Part shown: piece by piece, positions 35,303 to 60,114 of the stretch
Layout: every line of letters begins with the position of its first letter
Numbering within the stretch: position 1 is the first letter of the stretch
Assembly (NCBI RefSeq): GCF_000382245.1
Contig: NZ_KB907865.1
Location: 62,001-126,000 of the forward strand
DNA: 64,000 nt
Origin: Kushneria aurantia DSM 21353
Lineage (GTDB): Bacteria > Pseudomonadota > Gammaproteobacteria > Pseudomonadales > Halomonadaceae
Direction of reading: 5' to 3'
The notes under the pieces: model-generated
Databases searched by the model: none
The model's input: only the letters and a program-made list of their open reading frames with translations
Told to the model about the DNA's origin: nothing
Position numbers and translations under genes: made by a program

Positions 35303-36271
35303 CTACGCCGCCGAACGCGCCGTGGTCAGCCTGAGCAGCCCCTTCTGCAGCACGATAAAGGCCAGTAGCAGCACGCCGATGGCGATGCGGGTCCACCAGC
35401 TCGACAGAGTACCGTCGAAAACGATGTAGGTCTGGATCAGCCCCATGGTGAGCACCCCGAACAGGGTGCCGAACACATAGCCGGCACCGCCGGTCAGCAG
35501 GGTACCGCCGATCACCACGGTGGCAATCGCGGTCAGCTCGGTACCCACGGTGGCCAGCGGATAGCCCGAGCCGGTATAGAGCGCGAAGACGATGCCGCCA
35601 AGCCCCGCCATCAGGCCCGAAAAGGCGTAGATCATGACGGTCGTGCGTCCCACCCGGCTGCCCATCAGCCGCGCCGTCTGCTCGCCGCCGCCGAGGGCGA
35701 AGACATTGGCCCCGAAGCGAGTACGGTGGGCGATGATATGGCCGACCACGAAGGCCAGCAGCATCACCACGCCGATCAGCGTCAGCCGCCCCTTGCCCGG
35801 CATCAGCCAGTAGACCCGCTGCAGCGAGGTAAAGAAGGGGTGGTCGATGGGAATGGAATCGATGCTCATCATGTAGGCCACGCCACGAACCAGAAACATG
35901 CCGGCAAGGGTGACGATAAAGGCGGGCATGGCGAGGCGATAAATCAACCACCCCATGGCCGCACCGAAGGCGGTGGTTATCACCAGCAGCAGCGCGAACA
36001 CCGCCAGCGGGTGCAGCCCGCTGTCGCGCAGCATGACGGCGATAAAGACCCCCGAAAAGGCGATCACCGAGCCCACCGACAGATCGATACCACCGGACAG
36101 AATGACGATCGTCATGCCCACCGCGACAATGCCCAGGTAAGCGTTGTCGGTCAGCAGATTGCCGGCCACCCGGGTGGACAGTATGTAGGGAAACTGCAGG
36201 TAGCAGATGGCGTAGGCGATAATAAAAATGGCGATGGTCGCCAGCAGCGGATAGAGACGTGGATTTCTCAT
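35303..36271 (-). CDS. yjfF: Galactofuranose-type ABC permease YjfF
   Basis: Membrane permease of the ribose/galactofuranose importer class. 322 aa with about ten hydrophobic segments and the family motif GGIDLSVGSVIAFSG. The C-terminus looks complete and ends 8 nt before the hepT remnant on the other strand. The ATG overlaps ytfT by 4 nt. The longer reading upstream is only the shadow of ytfT. Confidence 0.9.
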   Translation of the reverse strand: MRNPRLYPLLATIAIFIIAYAICYLQFPYILSTRVAGNLLTDNAYLGIVAVGMTIVILSGGIDLSVGSVIAFSGVFIAVMLRDSGLHPLAVFALLLVITTAFGAAMGWLIYRLAMPAFIVTLAGMFLVRGVAYMMSIDSIPIDHPFFTSLQRVYWLMPGKGRLTLIGVVMLLAFVVGHIIAHRTRFGANVFALGGGEQTARLMGSRVGRTTVMIYAFSGLMAGLGGIVFALYTGSGYPLATVGTELTAIATVVIGGTLLTGGAGYVFGTLFGVLTMGLIQTYIVFDGTLSSWWTRIAIGVLLLAFIVLQKGLLRLTTARSAA

Positions 36272-37302
36272 CGATCCGACCTCTGTGGGGCCGCCTTCGC
36301 CGAGCGGCGCGGCGCGCGGCGTGACAGCTGCGAACCCAGGCGTTTCAGGTCGCCGGCCAGGCTGGGCGACTGCACCACCAGAATCAGGATCACCAGCACC
36401 GCCTTGATGACCAGGTTGTACTCCGAGGGGAAACCGGCCAGCAGAATACCGGTATTGATGGTCTGAATGATCAGCGCCCCGATCACCGCAGCAGAGATCG
36501 AGAAGCGCCCGCCACGCAGCGAATTGCCGCCCAGCACGGTGGCCAGAATGGCATCCAGCTCGAGCCACAGCCCGGCATTGTTGGCATCGGCGCCGCGAAT
36601 GTCGGCGGTGGTGATGATGCCGGCCAGCGCCGCGCACAGACCGGACGCCATGTAGACGGCGATCAGGATGACTCGCGCATTGACCCCCGCCAGCGCACTG
36701 GCGCGGCGATTGATACCGACCGACTCGATCAAAAGCCCCAGTGCCGTGCGGCGCACGATGACGATCGCCAGTGCCGTGACCGCCAGCCAGATCCACACCG
36801 GCACCGGCACGCCAAGCAGCGTGCCGGAACCGAGAAAGGCAAACCCCGGCATATTGAAGGTCAGAATGCGGCCCTCGGTAATCAGCTGGGCGATACCGCG
36901 CCCCGAAATCATCAGAATCAGGGTGGCAACGATCGGCTGAATGCCGACCACGGCGACCAGAAAACCGCTGAAGCCGCCGGCGCACAGGCCGGCGGCCAGG
37001 GCCAGCACAATCGCCAGCACCAGGCCGTGACCGGCCACGATGGCGGCCGCGGCGACCGCCCCGGTGATCGCCATCAGCGTGCCTACCGACAGATCGATGC
37101 CGCCGGTGGCCACCACCAGCGTCATGCCCACCGCCAGCAGCGCCACCGGCGCGCCGCGTTTCAGTACATCAATAACAGGGCCGACCAGTCGACCGTCGCT
37201 ATAGTCGATACTCAGGAAGTCGGGAAACACCAGACTGACCAGCACCATCACCCCCAGCAGGGTGATCAGCTGCGGCAGAATACGCTTCACTGCGGCGGGC
37301 AT
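36268..37302 (-). CDS. ytfT: Galactofuranose-type ABC permease YtfT
   Basis: Partner permease of YjfF. 344 aa, hydrophobic throughout, with TGGIDLSVGTLMAITG near residues 66-81 and the segment ADIRGADANNAG late in the protein. The C-terminal tail is short and basic. It overlaps ytfR by one base and yjfF by four, so the four ytf genes are probably one transcript. Confidence 0.92.
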   Translation of the reverse strand: MPAAVKRILPQLITLLGVMVLVSLVFPDFLSIDYSDGRLVGPVIDVLKRGAPVALLAVGMTLVVATGGIDLSVGTLMAITGAVAAAAIVAGHGLVLAIVLALAAGLCAGGFSGFLVAVVGIQPIVATLILMISGRGIAQLITEGRILTFNMPGFAFLGSGTLLGVPVPVWIWLAVTALAIVIVRRTALGLLIESVGINRRASALAGVNARVILIAVYMASGLCAALAGIITTADIRGADANNAGLWLELDAILATVLGGNSLRGGRFSISAAVIGALIIQTINTGILLAGFPSEYNLVIKAVLVILILVVQSPSLAGDLKRLGSQLSRRAPRRSAKAAPQRSDR

Positions 37303-57186: not shown

Positions 57187-57804
57187 ATGAGCCGAAAACG
57201 TCAGAATAGCAGAGCCCGCGCGGCCCGGGGTGGCCGCCTGCGGCTGATCGGCGGCGACTTTCGCCGCCGCCTGCTGCCGGTCCCTGACCATCCCGGGCTG
57301 CGCCCCACTCCCGACCGGGTGCGCGAGACGCTGTTCAACTGGCTATCGGGACACATCGACAGCCGCACGCGAGCGCTGGATCTGTTCGCGGGCACCGGCG
57401 CGCTGGGGCTGGAAGCGCTGTCGCGGGGCGCCGGCGAGGTGGTGTTCGTCGAGTCGGAACGCCGCGTAGCGCGGCAAATCGAGGACAACCTCGCTACCCT
57501 CGGCGCTGCCATGGCGGTCCATCAGCAGGACGCCGAAGGCTTTCTGGAGCGGCCACCGGCGCGCCCTTTCTCGCTGGTATTTCTCGACCCGCCCTTTCGC
57601 TGCCAGCTGATCGATGCCTGCTGCCAGCGCCTGAGCGGCGACGGCTGGCTGGCCGACGGCGCCTATATCTACATCGAAACCGAAGCCGAACTTGCCTTCA
57701 CGCCACCGCCCGGCTGGCAGCTCGAACGCACCACCCGCGCCGGCGACAGCCTGGCACGACTTTATCGCTGCGTGAGCGACCATGCCGCCGGTGCAGGTAG
57801 ATGA
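57187..57804 (+). CDS. rsmD: 16S rRNA (guanine(966)-N(2))-methyltransferase
   Basis: 205 aa. Motifs GGDFRRRLLPVPD, RPTPDRVRETLFNWL, SAM-binding LDLFAGTGALGLEALSRGA and catalytic FLDPPF. The last codons (from about ARLYRC to the stop) lie inside direct repeat 1, and the tail SDHAAGAGR is unlike other RsmD ends, so the repeat-bearing element may have replaced the native C-terminus. Divergent from ftsY, as usual. Confidence 0.93.
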   Translation: MSRKRQNSRARAARGGRLRLIGGDFRRRLLPVPDHPGLRPTPDRVRETLFNWLSGHIDSRTRALDLFAGTGALGLEALSRGAGEVVFVESERRVARQIEDNLATLGAAMAVHQQDAEGFLERPPARPFSLVFLDPPFRCQLIDACCQRLSGDGWLADGAYIYIETEAELAFTPPPGWQLERTTRAGDSLARLYRCVSDHAAGAGR

Positions 57805-57822
57805 AGGTAACATGCGCCATTC
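57753..57822 (+). repeat. Direct repeat copy 1, over the 3' end of rsmD
   Basis: 70 bp starting GGCACGACTTT and ending CATGCGCCATTC. Matches copy 2 (59685-59751) except for an extra ATC at 57764-57766 and one A/G change. It includes the final rsmD codons and stop. Confidence 0.9.
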
Positions 57823-57900
57823 GGAAGTGATGGCAGAGGTCGAGTGCTGCGTCGCGGGTAGCCGTGCGCTTGTTTTGAGTAGAGCCCAAATGACGTTGAT

Positions 57901-58533
57901 TCAAATACCGGCAAAGCTTTTGCTGGCTAACAGTGCGGCCGCAAGAATCATGACCAATCCGCAGCATCTGCTCACAAGGCGGGAGGAATAACGCCGCAAT
58001 ACATTGGCTGCGCGGATTCCGAGCCACCCCCAGCCGACAAGCGTCAGGCCGTCAACGACAAGATATGTCCCACCGAGAATAAGTATCTGCAGAGACAAGC
58101 CTCGATCGGATGCAATAAATTGCGGCAAAAGGGCACCAAAGAAGATGATCGCGAACGGGTTGGACAGGGACGTAAAGAATCCCTGCCGGAACAACGTCCA
58201 GTTGGACGTCTCGGTGCGGACCCCGCTGCTACCGAAGCCGGTGGATTCCGATCTGAAGACTCGTATGCCGGTCCAGACAAGATAGATAACGCCCAACCAC
58301 TTGATGATCGTGAATGCATGACTTGATGCGGCGACAATCGCTGCCAGACCAAGGCCGGCCGCAGCGATCTGGATGGCATTTGCGAACAAATCTCCTGCAA
58401 TCGTATTGATGCTGCGATCCAACCCGTGGCTAATGCTGTTGGATATGATGAGCAATTGACTCGTGCTTGGCGGCGTCACGAAAAAAGCCGCTACGACGAG
58501 CAGATAGGCGACATAGGTTTCGAGCATCATCAC
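57901..58533 (-). CDS. LysE/RhtB-family amino-acid exporter
   Basis: 210 aa, about six membrane segments. The family pattern is clear: N-terminal TYVAYLLVVAAFFVTPPSTSQLLIIS with the PP(S/G) turn, GDLFANAIQIAAAGLGLAAI, IIKWLGVIYLVWTGIRVFRS and FFTSLSNPFAIIFFGALLPQF. Members expel amino acids or homoserine lactones; the substrate here is unknown. The start overlaps the small upstream gene by 4 nt. Likely controlled by the divergent AraC gene. Confidence 0.85.
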   Translation of the reverse strand: MMMLETYVAYLLVVAAFFVTPPSTSQLLIISNSISHGLDRSINTIAGDLFANAIQIAAAGLGLAAIVAASSHAFTIIKWLGVIYLVWTGIRVFRSESTGFGSSGVRTETSNWTLFRQGFFTSLSNPFAIIFFGALLPQFIASDRGLSLQILILGGTYLVVDGLTLVGWGWLGIRAANVLRRYSSRLVSRCCGLVMILAAALLASKSFAGI

Positions 58534-58763
58534 GAATGCGTTCCGAAAAGCTGATCCACTGGCATGTCCGTGCTGTCAGCAGGCTTTGCCATCACGATAA
58601 CGATGCTGCCGGTATTTCCGAATGGCAGTAGCACATTGAGGCGCGAGCAAAGCACCGCCAAAACGCCCTTCCCCACGTCTGCCACAAAGTACCTTTCCTC
58701 GCCGCATATAATGGGATGCCGGAACCCGGATAATGGTTGTCTCCTGCCAGGAAATATGCTCAT
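58530..58763 (-). CDS. Small protein coupled to the LysE exporter
   Basis: 77 aa. GGGAG lies 7 nt before its ATG, and its stop overlaps the exporter start by 4 nt (ATGA), which argues that it is real. It begins MSIFPGRRQPLSGFRHP and has a hydrophobic middle around VGKGVLAVLCSRLNVLLPFG. I do not recognise it. It could be a remnant of a longer protein or a small accessory of the exporter. Confidence 0.55.
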   Translation of the reverse strand: MSIFPGRRQPLSGFRHPIICGEERYFVADVGKGVLAVLCSRLNVLLPFGNTGSIVIVMAKPADSTDMPVDQLFGTHS

Positions 58764-58846
58764 TTCGTCACTCCCGAAGGTCAGCTTTGAATAACTGCAA
58801 CAACGGTAGTTAAATTGGATATCCCCGTGTTACGGATTCCGGACAA

Positions 58847-59641
58847 ATGACTGCTCAAACCGGCCAGAATAGTGGGTGCGAAGATGTTCTCGACGATTCT
58901 GCGATATCTGTTTTGCCCTACCCACTCCAGGCAAGGCAGCTTGATCAGCTCCATGTCCACAGCTATCACCAGATCGCGACGTGCGAGCAACCCGGCGCGA
59001 CCCTGCTTCTCGACTCTCAAGTTGTCAGCATCCCACCGGATGGTGCATTACTCGTCCCAAGCGGTAACGCCCACGCCCTGACTTCCGATGCTCGATGCCT
59101 TGTAAACTGCATCTATTTCAAGGCCGCGCTCCCGAGCCCATCCATCGGATCGCTTTTTCTCAACCGGCTTACAAAAGCGTTGATCCAGGAGGTCTCTCGA
59201 CCGGGCGTTAAGCAAAGATCGCGCCGATTGATGGAGGCGTGTCTGTATGATCAGATCGGCCAGCTTCTGTGGACATCGGGAAGCGGAATGATGCCCCCGT
59301 CACACTCACTTCGGATAATCTGCAAGCGTATTTTTGACACACCCGAAGAAGACGTTCCTGTCGCAACGTTGGCAAAGGACGCAGGTTTAAGCGAACGATC
59401 CTTGCGCCGGTTGGCACGCGACGAACTTGGCTGCACTATCTCCCGGCTTCGGACTCGTTGTCGAATCTACAAGGCAACTCAGCTACTGCAGGCGGGCACT
59501 CCAGTAAAGTTAATCGCAGCCGATGTGGGCTACCAATCGGATAGTGCTTTTTTTGCAGCATTTCGTGACTTGATGGGGATGTCACCGGCCCGCTTCCAGC
59601 AGACTGTGCGCCTTCCAGTCGTCTCGGCCATTTACGATTGA
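58847..59641 (+). CDS. AraC-family transcriptional regulator
   Basis: 264 aa. The N-terminal 100 residues form a cupin-like sensor (HVHSYHQIATCEQPGATLLLD, IPPDGALLVPSGNAHALT). Residues 165-262 form the AraC DNA-binding domain with both helix-turn-helices: VATLAKDAGLSERSLRRLARD and LIAADVGYQSDSAFFAAFRD, then MGMSPARFQ. Divergent from the small gene and the LysE exporter, so it probably regulates them. Lower GC than neighbours. Confidence 0.85.
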   Translation: MTAQTGQNSGCEDVLDDSAISVLPYPLQARQLDQLHVHSYHQIATCEQPGATLLLDSQVVSIPPDGALLVPSGNAHALTSDARCLVNCIYFKAALPSPSIGSLFLNRLTKALIQEVSRPGVKQRSRRLMEACLYDQIGQLLWTSGSGMMPPSHSLRIICKRIFDTPEEDVPVATLAKDAGLSERSLRRLARDELGCTISRLRTRCRIYKATQLLQAGTPVKLIAADVGYQSDSAFFAAFRDLMGMSPARFQQTVRLPVVSAIYD

Positions 59642-59684
59642 AACAGTGAGTGTTCAGACCGAGCGATTGTGCCTCCAGCAACTC

Positions 59685-59751
59685 GGCACGACTTTGCTGC
59701 GTGAGCGACCATGCCGCCGGTGCAGGTAGATGAAGGTGACATGCGCCATTC
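59685..59751 (+). repeat. Direct repeat copy 2
   Basis: 67-bp second copy of the rsmD-end repeat, about 1.9 kb after the first, lacking the ATC and with G at the single mismatch. Ends the islet; the zapB-like gene begins 99 nt later. Confidence 0.9.
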
Positions 59752-59850
59752 TGTAAAGGCACATCTCTTGCCGCACGCGACGCGCGGGCGTAGTCTGGCC
59801 CCGCGCGGGCACCGGCGCGGCGGCGCCACGATACGAATCAGGAGCAGAGC

Positions 59851-60114
59851 ATGAGCAACGAACTTTTCGAGCAGCTTGAACAGCGCGTTCACAGTGCCGT
59901 CGAGACCATCGAGATGCAGCGTATGGAACTCGACGAGCTGCGCCAGGAGAATGAGCAGCTGAAAAGCGATCGTCAGCAGTGGGAGGCCCGACTGGGCGCT
60001 CTGCTGGAGCGCTTTCGCGAACTCGAGGGCGGCGGTGGCGAACAGCACGACGGCCATCACGATAACCACCAGCACAACGATCATCAGCACAACGATCACC
60101 AGCCCTCCTGGTGA
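59851..60114 (+). CDS. zapB: ZapB-like coiled-coil protein with histidine-rich tail
   Basis: 87 aa. Residues 1-58 are a parallel coiled coil (LFEQLEQRVHSAVETIEMQ, LRQENEQLKSDRQQWEARL) of the ZapB/DUF904 type, which in E. coli links FtsZ-ring proteins to the nucleoid region. After a four-glycine hinge, residues 66-83 contain eight histidines in a repeating HQHND pattern, unusual for the family. The symbol is a family guess. Just beyond the islet. Confidence 0.72.
   Translation: MSNELFEQLEQRVHSAVETIEMQRMELDELRQENEQLKSDRQQWEARLGALLERFRELEGGGGEQHDGHHDNHQHNDHQHNDHQPSW

Follow-up and report, generated by a model that had tools for sequence, protein, structure and literature searches.

A low-GC exporter and regulator islet between near-identical direct repeats at the 3' end of rsmD in Kushneria aurantia DSM 21353

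Elements mobilised by tyrosine recombinases are described in part of PMC5704250 as being flanked by repeats of generally 8-60 bp, and for streptococcal elements whose tyrosine integrases are site-specific, a range of 12-54 bp is given in part of PMC4701971. IMEs and ICEs that integrate at the 3' end of housekeeping genes are described in the same parts of both sources. A repeat containing a gene end, followed by cargo and a second repeat, is the anatomy left by such site-specific integration, and this anatomy was found between rsmD and zapB in a 64-kb stretch of the Kushneria aurantia genome, the whole of which is referred to here as the window. The features of the locus are as follows.

57187-57804, forward strand: rsmD, 16S rRNA m2G966 methyltransferase (TIGR00095, 158.1 bits against a cut-off of 117.5; Pfam Cons_hypoth95)
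57753-57822, forward strand: direct repeat R1, 70 bp, consisting of the last 52 bases of rsmD including the TGA stop and then 18 bases
57823-59684, no strand: inserted DNA, 1,862 bp, 54.2% GC, matching none of nine congeners
57901-58533, reverse strand: LysE/RhtB-family exporter (Pfam LysE, 1.2e-28), 210 aa from the listed GTG
58530-58763, reverse strand: small ORF of 77 aa with a 4-base overlap with the exporter start
58847-59641, forward strand: AraC-family regulator, 264 aa, divergent from the exporter (Pfam HTH_18, 1.6e-21)
59685-59751, forward strand: direct repeat R2, 67 bp, a spare rsmD end that differs from R1 by one substitution and a 3-bp gap
59768-59796, forward strand: promoter-like motif of zapB, TTGCCG-17 bases-TAGTCT, to the right of R2
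59851-60114, forward strand: zapB, the native right neighbour (Pfam ZapB, 2.3e-12)

The closest described relative of this arrangement is the CIME, as defined in part of PMC5704250. The islet resembles a CIME in having direct repeats at both ends, one of them with the end of a housekeeping gene, and in containing no recombinase, integration or transfer genes; its flanks are like attL and attR with the target-gene end included, as an anatomy known from sequence alone. It differs in its small size (1.9 kb only), in the absence of any trace of a parent element and in its repeats, which at 67 and 70 bp lie outside the range of 8-60 bp that this source words as general, and we therefore liken the islet to a CIME without filing it as one. 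With respect to derivation from an ICE or IME, no remnant of such an element was found in the islet, and the search of the family genomes gave no relative carrying the repeat. The islet shares with the IMEs and ICEs of housekeeping-gene 3' ends an insertion at a gene end that leaves the product whole, whereas it has no integrase, its repeats exceed both quoted ranges, and rsmD is not among the targets given in those parts of PMC5704250 and PMC4701971.

The two repeats had been described in an earlier note as near-identical copies of 70 and 67 bp with one substitution and a 3-bp gap, and this was confirmed by their coordinates and alignment, in which 56 bp with one mismatch and 11 identical bases (GGCACGACTTT) are separated by the gap in R2. 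When the repeat was searched against the 3.75-Mb genome, matches at E<=0.001 were found in two places only, namely R1 (3.5e-39) and R2 (2.0e-24), and with these values the similarity is not a matter of chance. A family-wide search of 275 genomes including the own one, at an E limit of 0.1, gave some match in 72 genomes (own included). Outside R1 and R2, only partial stretches 17-48 bp long were matched, of which the two best cover 37 bp (84% identity) and 27 bp (93% identity), and all of them are taken as chance matches. The repeat was not found in plasmids or phages by blastn, nor was any exact 25-base piece of it found in viral contigs. The possibility of a widespread interspersed element, raised in the earlier note as an outcome against its reading, is thus rejected on the two places in the own genome and the short partial pieces in the 274 other family genomes. 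The repeat with other cargo, which the same note had proposed to look for, was found nowhere in the own genome, the family, the plasmids, the phages or the viral contigs.

An inverted repeat of the kind expected for a recombinase core was not present in R1 above chance (1392 of 2000 shuffles were equally good), and the comparison of the two end regions for terminal inverted repeats gave just 6-bp inverted matches. A transposon or insertion sequence is rejected, as the islet has no terminal inverted repeats and its duplication is 67-70 bp long instead of short. A tRNA-targeted genomic island is likewise rejected, since ARAGORN finds no tRNA or tmRNA gene in the window. No Rfam matches were found near the islet, and the promoter and terminator scan gave results at shuffle level. 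A separate direct repeat of 76 bp with 74% identity was observed elsewhere in the window (36049-36124 and 37059-37134, 1,010 bp apart), where by eye it perhaps represents two paralogous ABC permease genes.

Both neighbours of the islet are preserved, rsmD with its intact end in R1 and zapB with its motif to the right of R2. As stated in the earlier note, R1 carries the last rsmD codons; it includes the stop and keeps the gene whole. The RsmD tail past the conserved LY is 12 residues long here and ranges from 3 to 17 among the 70 pattern-readable tails in 109 relatives' loci, and the end of rsmD at this locus is therefore not odd. R1 keeps the LY codons (LY in 9/9 congeners, LYR in 7/9) whereas the 3-bp gap of R2 breaks the LY(R) codons, as is expected of a copy that is no longer coding. 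The motif before zapB is promoter-like by its consensus only. It lies 83 bases before zapB here and 97-107 bases before it in the congeners, with the same hexamers in seven of the nine and TTGCCC/TAGGCT in the other two. A looser form was found at 22 of 110 zapB loci (two congeners counted twice) as against 7 of 2000 control windows, and the motif is absent from the output of the standard promoter scan. The ZapB protein at this locus ends in a histidine-rich tail (EQHDGHHDNHQHNDHQHNDHQPSW), and a tail with at least five histidines was found in none of 95 ZapB pattern matches in the 109 relatives' loci.

The inserted DNA differs in composition from its surroundings, with 54.2% GC as compared to 64.3% for the whole window. 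Among 622 scan windows of 1,862 bp (step 100), the one with the lowest GC (0.541) starts at 57801, and all windows below 0.58 overlap the insert. The three insert ORFs have a GC3 of 0.58-0.64 and a codon-adaptation-like score of 0.37-0.41, as compared to 0.73-0.84 and 0.58-0.75, respectively, in ten flanking genes. These computations, which the earlier note had called for, bear out the lower GC of the islet and its deviant codon use.

The comparison with relatives also gave the empty sites that had been anticipated. In seven of the nine congeners the empty site with rsmD adjoining zapB was observed by base alignment, while in the remaining two it was read from the positions of the two genes; none of the nine has a match to the insert DNA. 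An rsmD match was present in 269 of the 275 family genomes, from which 100 places were taken from the best-scoring listed rows with some skipped, a sample that leans to closer relatives. Ninety-nine of these loci are closed, with a distance between rsmD and zapB of 58-305 bp, and none of the relatives in either set carries these genes with both repeats. We infer from this distribution a gain of the islet and not a loss elsewhere.

The single occupied locus among the 109 relatives (nine congeners and 100 family loci) belongs to G073 (L247, G073:C1:530500-550400, reverse strand), where an unrelated islet of about 3.9 kb lies between rsmD and zapB. Its genes, named by eye from their translations, are a LysR-like regulator, an AbgT-like transporter and an M20-like peptidase. 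Its GC is like that of its surroundings, and no rsmD-end repeat was found around it beyond short chance matches. One occupied locus in the sample indicates that the gap between rsmD and zapB takes insertions now and then, with no hot spot in the sample.

The cargo had been read as a LysE exporter, a small gene and an AraC regulator, of which the first and the last are upheld by their Pfam matches and the small gene is doubtful. The exporter falls in the LysE family with 100.3 bits against a cut-off of 25.6 over residues 17-205, most of the protein; it also matches PRK10520 and TIGR00949, both under their cut-offs, and the ATG directly after the listed GTG may be its real start. The regulator falls in the AraC family by its C-terminal HTH_18 domain (76.8 bits, cut-off 33.6). 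The small ORF gave no family match in Pfam, NCBIfam or PHROGs at the limits used and may be spurious and not a gene. The genome has eight tyrosine-recombinase matches, all of them outside the window. From the gene arrangement, the exporter is probably under the control of the AraC-type regulator.

Within the family, relatives of the exporter with 55-60% identity are present in five genomes and weaker ones in 11 more (E<=1e-30). In genome_contigs, where the best 80 of at least 525 relatives were considered, the best ones have about 50-60% identity and belong by their record titles mostly to Rhodobacterales. A Chromohalobacter (59%) and a Halomonas (55%) are also among the 80, and these two resemble the matches of the five family genomes. 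For the regulator, no relative was found in the 274 other genomes of the family (E<=1e-20), in 368 further ones of the class (E<=1e-25), or in genome_contigs and viral contigs, for which the scans are sensitive to close relatives only. Of 397 genomes across the phylum, 12 besides the own one have relatives of 26-34% identity at E<=1e-18. No exporter was found within about 1.5 kb of the nine AraC-relative loci fetched from the phylum. Conversely, no AraC gene lies beside the exporter in the two family loci whose ORFs were inspected, and no AraC match was found at family exporter loci among the matches listed. The insert DNA has no match in phages and a single one in plasmids, 227 bp at 67% within an exporter gene of a Tateyamaria plasmid, among whose neighbours there is no AraC gene. 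These genome, plasmid, phage and viral searches thus gave no donor of the islet.

An AraC match is present at three of the best 80 of at least 525 exporter loci, and at two of these the gene is divergent beside the exporter. These two pairs, L114 (an Oceanospirillaceae MAG) and L132 (a SAR324 MAG), have the same gene arrangement as the islet but differ from it in their AraC proteins, which are just 23-26% identical to the islet regulator, and in having no match to rsmD or zapB at their loci. Divergent AraC-exporter pairs thus occur elsewhere, and the cargo is of an ordinary type.

The reading that we favour, with slightly less than even confidence, is that a foreign exporter-regulator unit entered at the end of rsmD through site-specific recombination, with the integrase acting in trans or since lost. 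Under site-specific insertion, a foreign unit of divergent AraC-type regulator and LysE/RhtB-type exporter would have entered once between rsmD and the zapB motif, after the lineage split from the examined congeners, and R1 and R2 would be the attL and attR of an insertion at the rsmD 3' end. A circle with a copy of the rsmD end would have recombined with the chromosomal copy, leaving rsmD whole with R1 as its end and R2 as the redundant copy that has since drifted. The recombinase would have acted in trans or disappeared together with a larger element of origin, as for a cis-mobilizable element; site-specific recombination, circular intermediate and trans-acting enzyme are all presumed here from the anatomy. 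Points for this reading are the empty site, the lack of insert matches in the congeners, the lowest GC in the window, the low codon adaptation, the confinement of the repeat to one locus, and the LY codons that are kept in R1 and broken in R2. The lack of a Ku match in the own genome adds to these, as it speaks against capture by end joining, although not against replication-based capture.

Several observations count against site-specific insertion. As had been reported earlier, there is no integrase within the islet. The ORFs fill nearly the whole of it, leaving no room for an integrase remnant. The repeat is not found in plasmids, phages or viral contigs and the site is not reused in the 109 relatives apart from the repeat-free islet of G073, while the repeats are longer than the quoted att ranges and have no inverted-repeat core beyond chance. 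Among the papers listed by literature searches, none was found on rsmD (yhhF) as an integration site. The gene-end location itself is weak evidence, since little space separates rsmD from zapB and a duplication of 70 bp at this place would in many cases take in the end of the gene. A more specific form of the reading, in which the rsmD 3' end is an unreported integration site and the islet a minimal passenger cassette of 1.93 kb (nothing but cargo and an att site) moved by a trans-acting integrase, is possible but unlikely. Of the integrating-element or passenger-cassette reading in the earlier note, the insertion, the foreign composition, the empty site and the preserved rsmD have stood, whereas no repeat with other cargo and no core symmetry were found, and the one occupied site in 109 holds an islet free of repeats.

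Illegitimate insertion is a close rival which accounts for the locus nearly as well, and we give it a substantial if lesser probability. A foreign fragment would have been taken up in the course of repair or replication restart, and its second junction, formed about 70 bp upstream of the first, would have duplicated the target with no dedicated mobile system. A one-off event at a site that is not used recurrently fits this explanation, as do the shared repeat not found elsewhere, the repeat length above the quoted att range, the recombinase symmetry not seen, the cargo that is merely an ordinary regulator-exporter pair, and the unrelated G073 islet at the same place without repeats. It is countered by the lack of a Ku match and by the sharpness of the ends, at which inspection by eye revealed no microhomology on the insert side. 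To our knowledge, a target duplication of 70 bp is also longer than those made by known transposases.

A further explanation, which we consider rather improbable, is homologous recombination by a single crossover of a circle that already carried the 70-bp piece of rsmD, such as the excision product of a related strain. The anatomy of repeat, insert and repeat fits this, and tracts of 70 bp can recombine, though poorly, but it merely shifts the question to how the circle obtained the rsmD end, and no such circle was found in the plasmid collection. An ancestral islet lost in the relatives, for which no favourable observation was found, is hardly credible, given its alien composition and its absence from the site in 9/9 congeners and 100/100 further family loci.

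The islet represents one clean and clear acquisition of genes, of a generally familiar kind, whose insertion scar is well preserved. Should the repeats be att sites, a housekeeping-gene end would join the integration targets, and the islet would be a very small cassette free of an integrase. If they are not, it would be a tidy case of a foreign transporter-regulator pair settling in the chromosome with its neighbours unbroken.
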